The position numbers and the translations under genes were made by a program. A stretch of 64,000 nt of DNA, taken from contig SCHM01000006.1 in assembly GCA_004123355.1 (NCBI GenBank), positions 1,350,488 through 1,414,487 on the forward strand, given 5' to 3'. Source of the stretch: Amphirosellinia nigrospora. Lineage: Eukaryota; Ascomycota; Sordariomycetes; Xylariales; Xylariaceae. Shown piece by piece: positions 26,047 to 64,000 of this stretch (its first letter is position 1; every line of letters starts with the position of its first letter). A model generated the notes under the pieces. The model was given only the letters and a program-made list of their open reading frames with translations. It had not been told where the DNA came from and made no database searches.

Positions 26047-29000
26047 ATACTAATATTTTTTTCTATAAATATTATAATATTATAAATTTCGAAAAAAAAA
26101 ATAATAAAAACTTTAAATTAATTTAATATTATAATTAAATTTTTTCTTTATAACTAAAAATATATAATTAACTAATTAAACTAAATATAATATTATATAT
26201 ATATATAAGCTATATATTTTATTTTAAAACGGACTTATTTTTATTTAGCTTAAAATTATTATTTATAAATATTTTTATTATTATTATAATTTTAATATAA
26301 TTTTTATTTATTTTAAAGTTTAAAAAAAAATTTTAAAATATTTTATTTTTATAAAATATATAAAATAAAATAGTACCGTTTTTTATATTTATTTAAATAC
26401 TTATTAAATAAATAATTAAATAGCGTTATTTTTTTAAAACTTTAGATTTTTTTAAATTTAAACTTTTAAAACTTTTTTAAATCTAAAAAATAAATAAATA
26501 ATATTAGTTATTTTTAGCTAAATATTATTTTTTTTAATACTTAATAAGCTTATTAATCGTATAATAAAATAAATTAAATTAATTATATAATTTATAAGTT
26601 TTAAAATATTATAAATATTAAAATATTAAATTAATTATTTTTTAAAAAGTTAATATATTAATAATTTTTTTTTTAATAATAATAAATAAACTTAAGCTAT
26701 TAATTATTTATTATATAAAGTTTTAAAAAAGCTTAGTTTTGTTTTTTTTTTTTGCTAATTTTTTTAACTTATAAATTAAATAAAAATAAAAACTTTTAAT
26801 ATTTAGCTTTTTTTAATAGTTTAATTAATTATTAATTAAATTATTTTTAATTTTATATATATTAGTTTAATATAATTAGCTTATATTTTTTAGTTAATAT
26901 AATAATATATTTTTTTATATGCTTTTTTATTTTAATATAATAATATATTTAAACTAATTAATAATTTTATATTATTATATAAAAAATAATAAAACTATTT
27001 AATAATATTTTAAATTTATTTAAAAAGTTTTTTATTTATATTAAATTATTTATTATTTTATATATTATATATATTTATTTTTAATAAAACTTTTCGTTAT
27101 AACTAATTATAGGTTAAAATATTATAATATTAGCGTACTATTTAAAAATATAATATATTTTATTAATAATTTACTATTTTATAAATTTAATACTAAAATA
27201 ATATTAATAGTAGCAAATAAACTTATATTATTATAAATTTTATATAAATAGCTTTTTTTTAGCTTATATATTTAATTTATATATTTAAAATATTTTTTAT
27301 ATATTTAGCTAATTATTTTATTTTTAATATATTTATTAAAAAATTTATTATAAATTTTGCTTAAATAAAATAATAAAATTATATTAAGCTTTATAATTTA
27401 AATAAAAAAACTTAATTTATAAATAAAAAATATAATTAAATATTTTATTTTTAAAATAAGTTTTTTTTTACGCTTTATAATATAAGTTATTTTTTAATAT
27501 TTATAAATATAAAATATTTTTATATTAAATTTAATTAATAAAATTAAATATTTTAATTATATATTATTTTTAATTAAAGCTTATATTATTATTAATTTTA
27601 TTTTTTATAATTTATACGTTTAAAAACTAGTTAATTTAGCTTAAATTATTTGCTAAAATTATTTTATTAATTTTTATAGCAATATTTTTTAAATAATTTA
27701 AATTAAATTTTATAATTAAAAAATTATTTATAAAAATATTATAACTTTTTTATTTTATAGTTAATATATATATTATTATTAAAAATTATAAGCTTAAATT
27801 TAACTTTATTTATAATTTTTTTAGTTTTAATTTATTATTTATATTTTAATTATTTAAAATTATATAAAACTTTATTAGTTTAATAATTTTTTTAATTAAT
27901 TAATTATATTTTTTTTATTTTAATTTAAAACTTTTAAAATATTTTTTTAATATTTTAAACTATTTTATAAATATTTTTTTATAAAAAGCTTTATTAAAAT
28001 ATATAATTATAAAATTAATTTAAATAATATATTATTTTAAATAATTATTAAAGCTATTAAAATTTTTTATAATATTATTTAAACTATAAAAATAAAAATT
28101 TTATTATAATTAATATTTTTACGCTAAATAAACTTATAAATATAAATTTTAATTTTATATTTATTTAGTTTATTAATTAATAAATATTTTTTTTAAATTT
28201 TATATAAAATTAATAAAATAACTATAAATAATTTTTATATATTTTATAAATTTTAAAATATTATATTTAAATAAACTATATATTTTTTAAATATAGTTTT
28301 AAGCTATTTTTTTTTATTTTTTTATAAATATTTTTTTTAAAATAAATTTATTAAAAATAAATATTTTATTATAAATTTTTTAATAATTTTTATAAATAAT
28401 TTATATAAAAATAGTTTTTAAAAATATAAAAATAATTTAGTTTATTTAATTTAGCTTTTTATAAGCTATAAATATTATATTAATTTTTAAGTTTTAAATT
28501 TATTTATTTTAGTTTTATATTTTAAATCGTTTATAAAATTATTTATATATATATTTTGTTTTTTTTAGCTTAATATTATATTTAAAATATAAATTATATT
28601 ATAAATATTTTATTTGCTTATATAATAAATATAAATTTTTAATTAAGTTTTTTTAAAGTTTTTTTTTATTATATTTAATAATAAAAATTAGTTTTATAAT
28701 TTATTTTTACGGTCGGCTATATTTTTTTAGTTCGTTTTTATTATTTATAATATTATTTTTAATAATATTATAATCGTAGTTTTATATTTAAATAAAATTT
28801 TTAATTTTTTAATAATATTATTTAAATTTATATTATTTTAAAAAAATAAACATATAATATTTTAAAATCGTAAATATTATTTATATTTTTAATATTTTTA
28901 TAAAAAGTTATATATAATATATATAATATTTTATTATTTTAATAAACTAAACTATATAATTAAATATATTTTTATAATTTAAAAATATAATATTAGTTTT

Positions 29001-30730
29001 TTTAACTTTTAGTTTTTTAGCTAATATATATATAAATTTATTAATAAATATTATATAATATATTTTATTATTATAAATTATTAAAATTAAGTTTATTATT
29101 TTTTTTTAATTTAAATAATTAAAATATTTTTTAATTAAAATTATTTTTTTTATTATAAATTAACTTATTTTATTAAAAATATATATAATTATTAAATTTT
29201 ATATTTTAAAATATAATTAATAACTTAGTTTATAAAATAAAGCTTTAGTTTTATTTTAAATAAAATTTATCGATTTTTTAATTATATTATTTTAATATTA
29301 ATTTATAAATAATAAAATAATAATAATTATTTTTATTTTATTATAAAATATTTTTAAATTTTATATTAAACTTTTATTATTATTTATATATAAAATATAG
29401 TATTTTTTTTAATAGTTTTTATTAAATTAAAATATTTAAAATATTAATTTTTTATTTATTTATTATAAATATATTTTAATAGTAATTTTGTTTTATTTTT
29501 TATTTTATATATTTTAAAAATATAATATTTATTATTATTATTTATTATAAATAAAAAATATTTATATTTTTTGATTAAAACTAGTTTAATTTAGTTAAAG
29601 TTTATTTAAATTATTTTTTTTAAATAATTAGCTTTTTTAATAGTTTTTTTAAAATATATTTTTTTTTTAACTTAATTATAAATAAAACAAAAAAATATTT
29701 AACTTTTTTAAATTTAATATTAATATTTATAATATTTTAATTATTTATATTAACTTTTTAATATTAAAATAATATAGTTAATAATACTAAAAATTAGTTT
29801 ATTTTAAATTTTAAAAATTATTTTTATTTTTTTTTTAATAATAATTTAAATAATAATTTTTTAATGTTTTAATTTTGTTTATTATATTTAGCGCGAATTT
29901 TTATAGCTTTTTTTAAAATTAATATATTATATAAAGCTTTTTTTTTTTTATATTTATAAAAAAAATTACGCTATTAAATATTAAAATTTATAATAATTAT
30001 TTTATAGTTATTTTTTATAATATATTTATTTAAATAGTTTTTTACTTTATATAGTTATTTTTTAAAAATATATTTAATAAAAATAATAAAATATAAAATA
30101 TATTTTATATTTATATTATATTTATTTTTATTAAAAGTTTTAAAGTTTTTATAATAATATTAATTTTTTTAATTTATATAAGTTTTTTTATATAAACTAT
30201 ATATTTTTTTGTTTTTTGTTAAATTTATTATTAACTTTTTTTAAATTAGCTTTATTATTATATATTTTTATATTTAATTTTATATTAAATAAAATATAAC
30301 GCTTATAAACTAAAATATAATAATTTTTTAAAATATAAATATATTTAAAATTATTATTTTTTTATAATAATTTTAATATTTAGTTTATTATTAATAATTT
30401 TAATATTTAATACGTTTTTTTAACTTAAGTTGTTTAAAATCGCTATTAAAAGCAAAAATATAAAAATAAAATAATTAAAAGTATTATTATTATAATTTTT
30501 TATTTAATAATTAATTTAATAATCAGTTTTAAATTATTTTTAAATTTATTATTATTAAAGCTAGCTTTTATTTAATAAAAAAGTTTATTATTTTTCGATT
30601 AATAAACAAGCTTATTATAGCAAATAAATCCGCAGTTATTTTTTTTTTTATAAAAAGTTTACGGTAATTTTTTTAATAAATATCCGCTGTTGTTTTTTTT
30701 TAGCTTAGTATAATTATTAAAGCTAAAGCT

Positions 30731-36840: not shown

Positions 36841-37447
36841 ATATAAGCTTTAATTATAAATATAATAATAAATTTAAACTATAAAGTTATATTTATATTA
36901 TTTACGAATAATTTGTTTATAAAAATAAAAAGCTTTATATAATAAATTAAAAAAAAAATATAAGCTTTTTTAATTAGTTATTTTTTATTTATTTAATTTA
37001 TTTATTTAATATTTTAATATTATATAATTATAGCTTAATAATTTAAGCTATAATAATAAATTATATATAGTTTTAAATTAATATATATTATTAATATATA
37101 TTTTTTTAGTTTATTAAAAAATATAAGTTTAAGCGAATTTTTTTATATAAAAATTAATTTAGTTAAGTTTTTAGTTTAGTTTTTTAAGTTATTATAATAT
37201 TTTATTTATATAAAAATTTTTTTATTATTAAATTTAAATAAATATTTAAAAAATAAAATTTTTTTAATTTTATATAAAGTTTTATTTATTTAAGTTTTTT
37301 TTTTTATATAATAAAAAATTTAACGTAATAAAATTTAACATATTATTTATTTATATTTTAATTATTTTAAAAAGTTTTAAACTATTATATATAACTAATA
37401 AATATAAATTATATATAATATTATATTTTAAGTTTTTTTAATAATAT
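36841..37447. other. AT-rich remains between A copy 2 and B copy 2
   Basis: No match to families A-D and no readable frame. It ends in the target site AATAT (37443-37447) of the next B element and should be continuous with sequence resuming at 42283, so both parts belong to one older host element. Confidence 0.45.
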
Positions 37448-37759
37448 TATAAAATAATATTAATATTAAAAAATAATATTAAGTTAATTAGTTTAATTAA
37501 TATATTTATATTATATACTTTTAGTTTTTTAGTTCTAAACTAAATAAGCTATTTTTTATTAAATATTAAAAAACTTGCTTAAATAGTTATAATAGCTTAA
37601 TATTTTTTTTATTTTACGTAAAAAAAAGTTTTTTTATATATATTACGTAATATTTAATATATATATAAAACTATATATTATTATATTATATAGCTATTTA
37701 AACATTAATATATATAATTTATTATTAGGTTAATTAAATATTAAGTTTATATATTAATA
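37448..37759. repeat. LTR B, left LTR of copy 2
   Basis: 312 bp; differences from the unmutated copy at 40136-40453 are almost all C-to-T or G-to-A, including the change of CTAGGGGGCAATACTAGG to an all-A/T/G version. Confidence 0.87.
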
Positions 37760-40135
37760 TTTTTTTTAGTTATAAATATTATAATATTATACATTTTAAA
37801 AAAAATAATAATAAAAAACTTTAAATTAATTTAATATTATAATTAAACTTTTTTTTATAACTAAAATATTAATTAACTAATTAAACTAAATATATTTATA
37901 TATATATATAAGCTATATATTTTATTTTAAAACGGATTTATTTTTTATTTAGTTTAAAATTATTGTTTATAAACGTTTTTATTATTATTATAATTTTAAT
38001 TTAATTTTTATTTATTTTAAAGTTTAAAAAAAAAACTTTTAAAATATTTTATTTTTTACGGGGTATATAAATAAAATAATATTATTTTTTTATATTTATT
38101 TAAATATTTATTAAATAAATAATTAAATAGCGCTATTTTTTTAAAACTTTAAACTTTTTTTAAATTTAAGCTTTTAAAACTTTTTTAAATTTAAAAAATA
38201 GCTAAATAACGTTAATTATTTTTAGCTAAATATTGTTTTTTATTATTTAATAAGTTTATTAATTATATAATAAAATAAATTAAATCAGTTATATTAAAAT
38301 TTATAAATTTTAAAATATTATAAATATTAAAATATTAATTAATTATTTTAAACAATTAATATATTAATAATTTTTTTTTTAATAATAATAAACGGGCTTA
38401 AACTATTAATTATTTATTATATAAAATCTTAAAAAAACTTAGCTTTATTTTTTTTTTTTGCTAATTTTTTTAATTTATAAATTAAATAAAAATAAAAACT
38501 TTTAATATTTAGTTTTTTTAATAATTTAATTAATTTATTAGCTAAATTATTTTTTAATTTTATATATATTAGTTTAATATAATTAGCTTATATTTTTAAT
38601 TAATATAATAATATATTATTTTTATATATTTTTTTTATTTTAATATAACTATATATTTAAATAAATTTTATAGTTTTTATTATTATATAAAAAAATAATA
38701 AAACTATTTAATAATATTTAAGTTTATTTAAAAAGTTTTTTATTTATATTAAATTATTATTATTTTATTTAGTATAATATATTTATTTTTAATAAAGTTT
38801 TTATTTAATTAATTATAGTTTAAAATATTATAATATTAACGCGTTATTTAAAAATATAATATATTTTATTAATAATTTATTATTTTATAAATTTAATATT
38901 AAAATAATATTAATAATAATAAATAAACTTATATTATTATAAATTTTAATAAATAGTTTTTTTAGTTTATTATATTTAATTTATATATTTAAAATATTTT
39001 TATATATTTAATTAATTATTTTATATTTTAATATATTTATTAAAAAATTTACTATAAACTTTATTTAAATAAAAATAATAAAGTTTATATTAAGTTTTAT
39101 AATTTTATTAAAAAAACTTAATTTATTAAATAAAAAGTATAATTAAATATTTTATTTTTAAAAGTAAGCTTTTTTTTACGTTTTATAATATAAGTTATTT
39201 TTTTAATATTTATATATTAAATTTAAACTAATAAATTAAATATTTTAATTATATATTATTTTTAATTAAAGTTTATATTATTATTAATTTTATTTTTTAT
39301 AATTTATATATTTAAAAATTAATTAGTTTAGTTTAAATTATTTATTAAAATTATTTTATTAGTTTTATAATAATATTTTTTAAATAATTTAAATTAAGTT
39401 TTATAATTAAAAATTATTTATATAAAAAATTATAATTTTTTATTTTATAATTAATATATATAATATTATTAAAAATTATAAATTTAAATTTAATTTTATT
39501 TATAATTTTTTAATTTTAATTTATTATTATTATTTTAATTATTTAAAATTATATAAAAACTTTATTAGTTTAATAATTTTTTAATTAACTAGTTATATTT
39601 TTTTTTTTTTTAAAAAGTTTTAAAATATTTTTTTAATATTTTAAACTATTTTATAAATATTTTTTTATAAAAGTTCTATTAAAATATATTATTATAAAAT
39701 CGATTTAAATAATATATTATTTTAAATAACTATTAAATTATTAAAATTTTTTATAATATTATTTAAACTATAAAAATAAAAATTTTTATAATTAAATTTT
39801 TATTAAATAAATTTATAAATATAAATTTTAGTTTTATATTTATTTAGTTTATTAATTAATATAAATTTTTTTTTTAAATATTTATATAAAATAATAAAAA
39901 TAGCTATAAATAGTTTTTATATTTTATAAATTTTAAAATATTATATTTAAATAAACTATATATTTTTTAAATATAGTTTTAAGTTATTTTTTTTAATTTT
40001 TTTTTTAAATATTTTTTTTAAATAAATTTATTAAAAGTAAATATTTTTATTATAAACTTTTTTAATAATTTTATAAATAATTTATATAAAAATAGTTTAG
40101 TTTATTTAATTTAGTTTTTTATAAATTATAAATAT

Positions 40136-40453
40136 TATAGAAATAGTGTTAATACTAGGGGGCAATACTAGGTTGGTTAGCTCAATTGGTGTATTCGTGC
40201 TATCATATACTCTCTGTCTTCTAGTCATAAACTGAGTGGGCTATTCCCTTACTAAATACTAGAGAATCTGCCCAGGCAGCTACGGCAGCCTAACACTCCT
40301 TCATCCCGCGTAGAAAAGGCTCTTTCCACGCGTGCCGCGCAGTATCCAGCGCACACACAAAGCCACGTGCCACACAGCCACACAGCCACCCAGGCACCAG
40401 TGATTACGTAATCTATCACTGGGCCAATCAAGTACTAGATCTATATGCTAATA
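40136..40453. repeat. Nearly unmutated solo LTR of family B, inserted in B copy 2
   Basis: A 318-bp island of normal composition, bounded by TSD AATAT (40131-40135, 40454-40458) and absent from B copy 1 at the matching site (about 28470). It aligns end to end with the four other B LTRs and shows their likely original sequence. The ends TATAG...CTAATA carry RIP-type TG-to-TA and CA-to-TA changes only. At about 318 bp it is shorter than the repeat length known to trigger RIP efficiently in Neurospora (roughly 400 bp or more). It must postdate at least most RIP of the surrounding element. Confidence 0.88.
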
Positions 40454-41125
40454 AATATATATTAATTTTTAAATTTTAAATTTATTATTTTAGTTTTATA
40501 TTTTAAATTGTTTATAAAATTATTTATATATATTTTATTTTTTTTAGTTTATTATATTTAAAATATAAATTATATTAAAATAATTTTTATTTATTTTATA
40601 TAAACATAAATTTTTAACTAAGTTTTTTAAAGTTTTTTTTATTATATTTAATAATAAAAATTAATTTAATAGTTTATTTTTACGGTTAATTATATTTTTT
40701 TAGTTTATTTTATTATTTATAATATTATTTTTAATAATATTATAATTATAGTTTTATATTTAAATAAAACTTTTAATTTTTTAATAATATTATTTAAATT
40801 TATATTATATTTTAAAAATAATAAATATATAATATTTTTAAAATTATAAATATTATTTATATTTTAATTTTTATAAAAATATATAATATATATAATATTT
40901 TATATATTTTAATAAATTAAACTATATAATTAAATATATTTTTATAATTTAAAAATATATTATTTTTTAAACTTTTAGTTTTTTAACTAATATATATATA
41001 AATTTATTAATAAACGTTATATAATATATTTTTTATTGATAAATTATTAAAGTTAAATTTATTATTTTTTTTTAATTTAAATAATTAAAATATTTTTTAG
41101 CTAAAATCATTTTTTTATTATAAAT

Positions 41126-41341
41126 GATACGCGCGGGCAAAGGGTGTGCGCGTACGCGCACACAAGCGCCCTGGCGCCGCACCAGCCACGCAGTGGCTGG
41201 TGCCTAGTCTATGCGTGTGGCTTTGCCACACACATACCCACGCACACACATATATTATCTAGATCTATAGAATTCCCATAGGTCATGGGGACTTCGTCTC
41301 CATCTCTTTTTAATATACAAATTTTACCCACATTTCACTAT
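41126..41341. mobile_element. 216-bp GC-rich palindromic insert of unknown family (MITE-like)
   Basis: This segment interrupts B copy 2; copy 1 runs through without it (29160). ATTATAAAT precedes (41117-41125) and ATTAATAAAT follows (41342-41351), an approximate 8-10 bp duplication. Near the two ends lie CGCGGGCAAA (41132-41141) and, inverted, TGTGGGTAAA (41332-41323), differing only by three C/T changes, so they may be terminal inverted repeats. Inside are a perfect 20-bp palindrome (41144-41163), an 11-bp stem with GCA loop (41179-41203, GCACCAGCCAC) and a 7-bp stem with TTT loop (41215-41231, GTGTGGC). It has no coding capacity. It is not RIP-mutated apart from possible changes in its right third. 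I do not recognise it. Confidence 0.6.
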
Positions 41342-41965
41342 ATTAATAAATTAATTAATTTTATTAAAATATATAATTATTAAAACTTTATATATTTAAA
41401 ATATAATTAATAATTTAGTTTATAAAATAAAGCTTTAGTTTATTTTAAATAAAATTTATCGATTTTTAAATTATATTTTTAATATTAGTTTATAAATAAT
41501 AAATAATAATAGTTATTTTATTTTATTATAAAATATTTTAAATTTTTTATATTAAACTTTTGCTATTATTTATATATAAAATATAGTATTTTTTCTAGTA
41601 GTTTTATTAAATTAAAATATTTAAAATATTAACTTTTATTTATTTATTATAAATATATTTTAATAATATTTTTTTTATTTTTATTTATATATTTTAAAAA
41701 TATAATATTTATTATTATTATTTATTATAAATAAAAATATTTATATTTTTCGATCGAAATTAGTTTAATTTAATTAAAGTTTATTTAATTTTTTTTTTAA
41801 ATAATTAGATTTTTTAATAGTTTTTTTTAAAATATATTTTTTAGTTTTAGTTTAATTATAACAAAATAAAAAAAAATTTTATTTTTTTAAGTTTAATATT
41901 AATATTTATAATATATTAATTATTATATTAACTTTTTAATATTAAAATAATATAGCTAATAATTA

Positions 41966-42277
41966 TATAAAAAATATTAATATTAAAAAATAATACTAGT
42001 TAATTAGCTTAATTAATATATTTATATTATTATATACTTTTAGTTTTTTAGTTATAAATTAAATAAGCTATTTTTTATTAAATATTAAAAAACCTGCTTA
42101 AATAACTATAGCAATATAATATTCTTTTTATTTTACGTAAAAAAGGTTTTTTTACGCGTGCTATATAATATTTAGCATATATATAAGCTATTACTATTAT
42201 ATTATATAGCTATTTAAACATTAGTAATCATATAATTTATTACTAGGCTAATTAAATACTAGGTTTATATACGAACA
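41966..42277. repeat. LTR B, right LTR of copy 2
   Basis: 312 bp, starting TATAAAAAATATTAATA and ending ACGAACA, followed by TSD AATAT. Confidence 0.87.
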
Positions 42278-61405: not shown

Positions 61406-64000
61406 TTAATATTTAGTTAATAAAAAAGCTAATTTATATAAATTTTATATAATATTATAATATTTAATATAAATAATTTAAAAAATATATTATTTAAACT
61501 AACTTTAATATAATTAATAATAAACTAATTAATTATATATATAAAAATATTATTATTATAAATATAATATTTATAAAAAAACTATTATTTATAAAACTAA
61601 ATAAATTAATAGCTTATAACTTATTATTAATAAATATTATATTATTTGTTAAAATAAACTAAATAGTAATTAATATGTTAATTTAAATATATATATAATA
61701 TTTAAAAAGATATTTATATTATTATTAATAAAAATTAACTAATTATATTTTATTAAGCCGGTTAATTTATTAACCGCTATAAATTAAAATATATATAAAT
61801 ATTTATATATTTAATAATATTTAATAAATATATATTAAAACAAGTAAACATAACTATATTTATAGCATTTTATAATATAACGGATAATAAATTAATTAAA
61901 GCTAAAATTTACGAAATTTTATAAAATATAATAAAATATATTAGTTTATAAAATAAATATTATTAATAAAAACGGTTAAAAAATTATAAACAAATATATT
62001 TTTTAATATAAAACATATTTAAATTATAAATATAAAACTAAATAAAATTATCCGATAATAAATATAACTATATAAATATTAATAAAAAGTTATTTAAGCT
62101 TTAAATAATTAAATAGTTTTATTTATAGCGAAATTAAATAATATTAAATAATATATATTTTTTATAGCAAATATAGCTAATATTTAATTATTATTAAAAC
62201 AAATTATTAATATTAATTATATTTATTAAATAAATAATAACTATTTAATTAATTATAGCTAATATATTAATAAATAATTTATTAATAAATAATTTATAAA
62301 AGCAATAAAATATATAATTAAAATAAATATTTATATATTAATAAACTATTTAAATATATTTAATTATTAACTGTTTATTTATTAAAAATTTATTAGCTAT
62401 AAATATAAAAAATATTATTTAATTAACTAGAATTTATTAATTAAAGCTATTTATTTTAAATAATAAAATAAATAAAATTATTAGCTAATAAAAATTTAAA
62501 ATTAAAAATATTTAAAATTATTAAATATATATATAATAATATTTAATTATTAGTTAATAAAACTTTAAAGCTAAAAATATTTAAAATTTATTAAATATAT
62601 ATATAATTATATAAAAACTTTTTTTATTTAATAAAAATATTTTTTAAAACTATTATTTTTTAGGACTATTGTTTTTTTTATATTAATTAAATATATAGGA
62701 TAAAAAATAAAGACGTTTTTTAATTTTTTTAAAAGTATAAAAAGTTATAGCTTTAAAGCTAAAAATACTGTTTATTAATTATAATAAAGAAAAAAGAAAT
62801 CTATACGTATTAATATATATAAAAAAGCTGCTATATAATAGCTTTAGCTTAAAACCGGAGCTATAACTTAAATTATAAAGTTATTAGCTTAGTTAGCTTA
62901 TAATATTACTTTTTTTTTTTTAGCTTATAAGTATAAATATAGCTATTAAAGTATAAAAATAATTTTTTGCCGTTAAGCTTTATTTAATAATATATTGCTA
63001 TTTTATATTATTTGTATATTAATATTATTATTTTATATTGCTTTTGTTTAATTATATAAAAAAAAAGGTTTTTTTTTAGCTTTTTTTTTTTTTTTTTTTT
63101 AATTTATTATTTTTATAAGTTTATTATTTTTAAACGCTTAGTTTAATATTAAAGTACGAGCTATTTTTATTTATATTAAAATAATAAAAAGCTGTTTATT
63201 TTTAATATATTTTAAAAAATATATATATTTTAAACTAGTATTATTATTAATTAGCTATTTATTAGCTATTTTTATTTTATTTTTATTTTATTTCTGCTTT
63301 TATTAAAAAAAAAACTAATTATTATAAGCTTAAATAGTTTTTTTTTAGTTTATAAACTATTTATTTATTTATTTAATAAAGCTCGGGATTTTTTATATTA
63401 TAAAATAGCTATTTAGCCGCTTTTTATTTATTTAGTATTTATTTATAATAATATATAATATATTTTTTATTTAGCTAAAAATTTATAGGTTTTTTATATT
63501 AACGTTAAAAATATATAGCGGTTTATTTAATATTTTTTAACTATTTTTAAGCTTTATTTTTTTAAAAACTATTTTTTTTTATTAATATATTATTAAATAC
63601 TAATAAACGTTATAACGTTTATGCTAGCTTAAATAAAAAATTAAAATATATATATATTTTTATAAATATTTTATATTTATTTTTATTTTTTTACTACTAA
63701 TAAATAGCTTTATAGCTATTTTATACTATTAATATAATTAAAACCTTTAATAAATTATATAATATTATATATAATTATAATAATAAAAATATAAATAAAT
63801 ATTAATATATTATATTAATTTAATATTTATTAATTTTTTATTTAAATATTATTACGGCCTAAAAAACTATTAATATATTTATTATATAAATTATAAGTTT
63901 TTATAGCTTTAAAACTATTTTTTTTTTATTAATAAACTATTTAAGCGCTAAAAAAAAACTTTTAGTTTTATATTTATTATTTTTTATAAAAATAATAGCT
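61406..64000. other. AT-rich host sequence right of element D, to the window end
   Basis: No family match and no frame. About 62640-64000 keeps slightly more C and G (for example AAAACCGGAGCTATAAC near 62851) than the stretch before it, suggesting another repeat whose partner lies outside the window. Includes a long T run at about 63082-63100. Confidence 0.45.
62478..62615 (+). repeat. Tandem duplication, two units of about 69 bp
   Basis: Two adjacent units begin TTATTAGCTAATAAAA and TTATTAGTTAATAAAA and share AAAATATTTAAAAT...AAATATATATATAAT; they differ mainly by C/T and G/A changes. Confidence 0.75.

Follow-up and report, generated by a model that had tools for sequence, protein, structure and literature searches.

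LTR retrotransposons integrate with a short target-site duplication (TSD), and recombination between the two LTRs of an element leaves a solo LTR behind. In fungi, solo LTRs of Gypsy and Copia elements have been ascribed to LTR–LTR or ectopic recombination, as stated in the relevant sections of reports on Cochliobolus heterostrophus (PMC4112212) and Verticillium (PMC3441728). A system of direct relevance here is crapaud, from the Podospora anserina complex, published in 2024. The corresponding part of that paper indicates that its solo and fragmentary LTRs mostly have a high GC content and that many of the LTRs belonging to full copies carry RIP mutations (PMC10787394). In fungi, palindromes or hairpins in the LTR region are documented for the GalEa elements of the Copia type, which have a Conserved Hairpin Site; according to the passages on this site, the hairpin starts at the junction between 5' LTR and interior, with CTGATCAGT or CTAATTAGT in 85% of families (PMC5445492).

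The window, i.e., the whole 64,000-nucleotide stretch of Amphirosellinia nigrospora DNA that was analyzed, corresponds to C8:1350488-1414487 in a 48.1-Mb genome of 11 contigs. A GC-rich insert lies on its plus strand at 41125-41345 (221 bp, TGATAC...ATATTA), and it is almost certainly the solo LTR of an LTR retrotransposon of about 8 kb, the label of putative retrotransposon being drawn solely from LTR anatomy. This assignment follows from its ends, its 5-bp TSD and the fact that it is the same kind of unit as the LTRs found on full-length elements. The insert has a GC content of 0.498, against 5% GC in each of its two 230-bp flanks, as expected from the preliminary description of a GC-rich insert inside a highly AT-rich element. 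The limits then proposed, 41126 and 41341, fall short of the true ends by one and four bases, respectively. The inverted pair CGCGGGCAAA/TGTGGGTAAA (41132-41141, complement of 41323-41332), previously noted near the ends, is internal to the LTR and does not constitute its terminal repeat; the family ends are TGATA/TATCA and those of the window copy TGATA...TATTA. That a piece of a mobile element had landed in an already AT-rich element is supported. An unfamiliar family, a MITE or a structured mobile RNA had been suggested as its nature; the copies aligned with their flanks point elsewhere, giving TG...CA termini, a 5-bp TSD and LTR identity. The insert belongs to a known kind of element, and a solo LTR largely keeping its GC amid almost pure A+T is ordinary, already described behavior. 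A TRIM at the window locus was also considered and rejected, a BLAST search of the LTR against the window matching only itself and its own palindrome. The end of the window (63700-64000) is the contig end and is AT-rich, with no telomere repeats in its last 301 bases.

As far as the available account of crapaud goes (PMC10787394), the resemblance is that both are LTR retrotransposons of fungi in which RIP operates, with GC-rich solos and several LTR subfamilies, the two being likened by description. The same account mentions full crapaud copies with high GC, some of them potentially active, whereas the 15 LTRs found on full or deleted elements of the insert family are all somewhat RIP-mutated. 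TG...CA ends are likewise found in C. heterostrophus, where the Copia insertion sites given in the text consulted are 5 bp long, with one of 6 bp (PMC4112212). The Gypsy LTRs of the cited sections are 433–516 bp long (PMC4112212, PMC3441728), in contrast to the 221 bp of the insert LTR and its unusually strong palindromes. The insert family shares palindromic and hairpin features at the LTR region with GalEa, as the latter is presented in the sections concerned. However, its interior begins with AATAGTGCTTCTAC, its palindromes are located inside the LTR, and the interior does not start with the FunCo1 primer site ATTAAGAGTCT (PMC5445492).

A search of the genome with the insert, an approach already proposed with the initial observation, returned at least 40 matches. 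The alignment comprises 36 copies with 70-bp flanks, a BLAST match of at least about 140 query bases being required, and shows consistent TG...CA termini. Five partial pieces were left out: two from L037 and one each from L045 and L046, all four among the 40 matches, and an additional 122-bp piece in L030. The ends shared by the aligned copies are TGATACG...TATCA, with a common left end in all 36 and a common right end in all except L036 and L041, the latter being cut off. The left end reads TGATA in 20 copies and TAATA in 16; the right end reads TATCA in 15 and TATTA in 20 (L041 included), and is misaligned in L036. TGATA and TATCA occur together in 13 of the 36, and the others show a G-to-A or C-to-T change at one or both ends, L036 again apart because of its misaligned right end. 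The truncated L041 has its own peculiarity: at about 299-560 (C7:584820 onward), its diverged LTR breaks off, and directly after it come interstitial telomere-like TTAGGG repeats and DNA of about 46% GC.

The insert is bordered by ATAAA on the left (41120-41124) and by an exact copy of it on the right (41346-41350), both read on the plus strand. A target duplication is thus present as had been reported, with a length of exactly 5 bp instead of an approximate 8–10 bp. An exact 5-bp TSD is found in 16 of the 36 copies, including that of the window; in 10,000 shuffles of left against right flanks, the number averaged 0.96 and never exceeded 6. None of the 36 copies matches across its flanks at 6–10 bp, and the TSD length is fixed at 5 bp. 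The 20 copies lacking an exact TSD were sorted by eye: nine are followed by a shared internal edge resembling AATAGTGCTTCTAC, six are preceded by another shared internal edge resembling GCCGGCACC, and five have neither. Among these five, the flanks differ by one mismatch in L025 and L031 and have CGTT in common, displaced by one base, in L011, and a TSD is absent from L029 and L041. The empty site is also available within the window, since the matching copy of the host element (host copy 1) lacks the insert, as previously noticed, and carries ATAAA once. Around the site, host copy 1 and host copy 2, in which the insert lies, are identical at 542 of 572 aligned bases; when the insert and one ATAAA are left out, 211 of 221 flanking bases agree.

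The same LTR unit is found at both ends, in the same orientation, of longer elements ruined by RIP. In 15 of the 36 copies, the unit adjoins internal sequence and forms the 5' or the 3' end of such an element, and the edge-bearing copies form same-strand pairs. The best full-length element lies at C10:146144-154221, between ATAAA and ATAAA. Its interior of about 7.6 kb (taken as 7635 bases, including one base of the 3' LTR) has about 13% GC, with 7–22% in 19 of 20 bins and 37% in the last bin, a 35-base remnant. Further pairs have matches on C4 at 9216134 and 9223703 (TSD TAAAT/TAAAT), on C5 at 2700660 and 2702694 (an internally deleted element, TSD AATAA/AATAA), and on C1 at 7613301 and 7621069, with TATAA flanking either side when the misaligned right end is judged by eye. 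Two pairs are found on C6, at 58581 and 66590, with flanks differing by one mismatch (GATAA/AATAA), and at 5282472 and 5290118, the 3' LTR of the latter being a 49-bp match only. When 251 bp of the 3' internal edge were used as a query, 17 matches were obtained, namely the query itself and 16 others at 68–94% identity.

The interior of the C10 element gave no Pfam match for 10 of its 11 listed stop-free pieces (all but the shortest). Genome scans with RVT_1, RVT_2, rve and Integrase_H2C2 placed none of the best candidates listed inside C10:146144-154221, and found matches elsewhere. A primer-binding site at the shared 5' edge was considered as well. The complement of the AATAGTGCTTCTAC edge matches 34 places in the genome, versus 56 for a control pattern; 12 of the 34 loci were examined, one being the element itself, and no tRNA was found at the 11 others. 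The idea was dropped. As a separate observation from the scans, five places share an identical RVT_1 score (C1:5499608, C1:12638343, C4:2326918, C4:7647740 and C4:7655988), in open frames of 757–1075 codons. They apparently are recent, unmutated retroelements in a genome with drastically AT-rich repeats.

Solo and paired LTRs differ markedly in their RIP state. The GC content ranges from 0.40 to 0.55 in solos (n = 16) versus 0.26 to 0.48 in paired LTRs (n = 15), with a Mann–Whitney p of 6e-6. The paired set consists of L012, L016, L028, L032-L036, L038-L040, L042-L044 and L013 at 2935. CpA sites are changed at 63 of 633 positions in solos versus 320 of 581 in paired LTRs, as counted against a majority LTR. 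Because 13 of the 16 solos went into this reference, these counts are biased in favor of the solos; the GC comparison is independent of it. In the window copy, 7 of 41 reference CpA sites are changed, so that its supposed escape from RIP mainly holds and is not complete. Some copies devoid of internal edges are more heavily mutated, with 20 of 40 CpA sites changed in L030, 10 of 38 in L027 and 16 of 38 in L031; the first two are solos with an exact TSD and the third has a near-TSD.

The history that we propose involves a full element, which would have integrated into an already AT-rich, RIP-ruined element and duplicated ATAAA. Its two LTRs, identical and about 221 bp long, would then have undergone homologous recombination, with deletion of the interior and one LTR, and this recombination would have preceded the action of RIP. 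The subfamilies discernible by eye among the solos lean towards such an early recombination, short of proof. The remnant of about 220 bp would have been largely spared because it lies under the usual RIP-trigger length. The elements that stayed full-length are mutated in their interior (about 13% GC in the one read whole), and the damage extends to their LTRs. In the portions of the literature that bear on this point, the usual requirement for RIP is a repeat longer than about 400 bp with more than about 80% identity, the figure of about 400 bp being that of Neurospora, with exceptions (PMC2621366). Strong CpA-type RIP is described for a 275-bp repeat of Stagonospora nodorum (PMC2621366), and targets down to 150 bp are reported in Neurospora (PMC10787394). 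The length threshold is consequently not absolute, as these 150-bp and 275-bp repeats are affected. It is nevertheless the probable cause of the sparing of the solo LTRs.

Two other explanations compete with this last step only, and leave the identification as a solo LTR untouched. According to the first one, the GC content of the solos would reflect their youth, through insertion after RIP had stopped or slackened in the lineage. Other retrotransposons of the genome do look recent and intact, as judged from the five identical RVT_1 scores and the frames of 757 to 1075 codons. In contrast, no paired LTR exceeds 0.48 GC, the 230 bp just inside the pair have at most 0.34 GC in all 15 paired LTRs, and 14 of the 16 solos are hit at no more than seven CpA sites. 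The transversions also argue against youth. The nearest-neighbor transversion distance is 0.0060 for solos and 0.0061 for paired LTRs when partners are included (p = 0.84). The nearest neighbor of a paired LTR can be its own partner, and the distance was therefore also computed with this partner left out, giving 0.0060 and 0.0073 (p = 0.57). The contrast between solo and paired LTRs is therefore not one of age, as far as such a coarse clock of about 220 bases shows, and youth appears unlikely. Within LTR pairs, two of five differ by about 3% in transversions and three by none. The value of about 3% exceeds what is expected of young pairs and is perhaps partly due to misalignment.

The second competing explanation keeps the GC content of solos through gene conversion among them after RIP. 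This option has been proposed for crapaud, in the part of the paper devoted to the matter (PMC10787394). Distinct subfamilies, as seen by eye, persist among the solos of the present family, which speaks against homogenization of this sort and makes it a rather remote explanation, less probable again than youth. Sparing through the length threshold remains the preferred reading.

The damage is also unevenly distributed within the LTR, in a comparison of halves that concerns one family and an inferred reference. In paired 5' LTRs, 62 of 190 CpA sites are changed in the first 110 bases versus 121 of 155 in the rest; the corresponding figures in paired 3' LTRs are 63 of 129 versus 74 of 107. When sites are split according to the upstream base, the deficit of the first half persists in all six classes present in both halves. 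In solos, the first half is likewise less hit at CpA, CpC and CpT, with no difference at CpG. The first half faces the interior in 3' LTRs, yet it is less hit there too, by a smaller difference, which argues against a pure edge effect. One could imagine that the GC-rich palindromic first half is intrinsically RIP-resistant and that it may be selected so that a putative promoter (U3) survives the sexual cycle. We regard this as an improbable proposal. As to the dependence of RIP on local sequence, the milder mutation of the GC-rich half offers a small lead.

The palindrome and the two hairpins recognized at the outset were confirmed. The perfect 20-bp palindrome GTGTGCGCGTACGCGCACAC lies within the LTR at 41144-41163, its stem parts being 100% and 97.9% paired in 16 copies. 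The hairpin with an 11-bp stem (41179-41203) has 92.0% of its cells paired in these 16 copies, and that with a 7-bp stem (41215-41231) has all cells with letters paired. A further small hairpin, GGRGAC-TTC-GTCTCC, is found at 41287-41301, with 95.8% of cells paired. Both strands fold stably when examined as suggested earlier: the plus strand of the insert folds as RNA at -84.3 kcal/mol (z = -7.0, none of 200 shuffles being as stable), and the minus strand of the full LTR reaches z = -5.7. All 36 copies fold below their shuffled mean, with z from -1.4 to -9.4 (60 shuffles each), and strong folding is a property of the insert's LTR family. Covariation does not accompany this stability in the 16 copies of GC about 0.5 submitted to RNAalifold, where changes on both sides occur in none of 55 pairs. 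With five named hairpins (38 pairs) in 16 copies, one pair shows a both-sided change, versus 1.3 in shuffles. No covariation measure of this five-hairpin structure exceeds the shuffles in the 16 copies (score 0.037, with 243 of 500 shuffles as high). The structure is 94.3% paired, versus 20.5–59.5% when partners are slid. Rfam gave no match in the whole window, nor in a permissive search of 40100-41400. The hairpin structure may perhaps matter for the LTR.

Could the 221-bp unit have been retrotransposed alone as a structured RNA, SINE-like or otherwise non-coding and mobile? Strong folding of both strands (z = -7.0 and -5.7), with all 36 copies below the shuffled mean, is what such a unit could display. 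However, the unit and its ends are the same as the LTRs of full-length elements, the TSD is fixed at 5 bp and not variable, Rfam has no match and covariation does not go beyond shuffles, so that this origin is extremely improbable. A MITE or other small DNA transposon, mobilized by a transposase and arriving after RIP, is equally hard to credit, although a short, non-coding, palindrome-rich, TSD-flanked insert with many copies could be mistaken for one. The terminal inversion is just TGATA/TATCA, below a 10-bp TIR, the ends are those of LTR pairs, and 15 of 36 copies are ends of longer elements, the TSDs lying outside the pair wherever the two ends could be set side by side. The solo LTR is the reading retained.

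A second family, LTR B, is represented in the same host element by a nested, little-mutated solo LTR located 0.7 kb from the insert (40136-40453, plus strand, 318 bp, GC 0.47), which is flanked by AATAT/AATAT and is not part of the insert. The host element itself seems to carry RIP-mutated LTR B at both ends, in the repeats 37445-37634 and 41964-42277. Its two copies, 26048-29745 and 37755-41924, are about 94–95% identical where aligned, and both are almost pure A+T; this likeness could come either from saturated RIP convergence or from duplication of one copy after RIP. The alignment of LTR B includes 43 sequences, four from the window and 39 fetched, these being from the best 40 of 75 candidates. 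Three complete solos, namely that of the window, L047 (TAAAA) and L048 (ATATT), have a GC content of 0.48–0.52 over the aligned part, as opposed to 0.09–0.41 for 37 copies of full elements, of which 36 were assigned by their internal edges (by eye); L082 was placed with them on the basis of its distance to L061. The remaining three, all truncated, have 0.28, 0.47 and 0.47. LTR B shows the same contrast between solo and full copies with respect to RIP as the insert's LTR family. The insert also has in common with LTR B the 11-mer CTAGATCTATA, which had been attributed, with some caution, to chance. Three matches are observed, versus a shuffle mean of 0.87, and 11 of 100 shuffles reach three. 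Two of these three matches fall within LTR B copies, which belong to a single family, and the exact 11-mer occurs in none of the 15 other little-mutated aligned copies of the insert's LTR. Chance is the best reading of the shared 11-mer.

A candidate "unknown mobile element" is removed from the list by these results. What replaces it is a further example of solo LTRs outliving RIP, in two LTR families, with a coarse transversion control of age in one of them. The repeats that neighbor these solo LTRs have come down to 5–13% GC. In such genomes, solo LTRs may be the best-preserved record of past retrotransposons.
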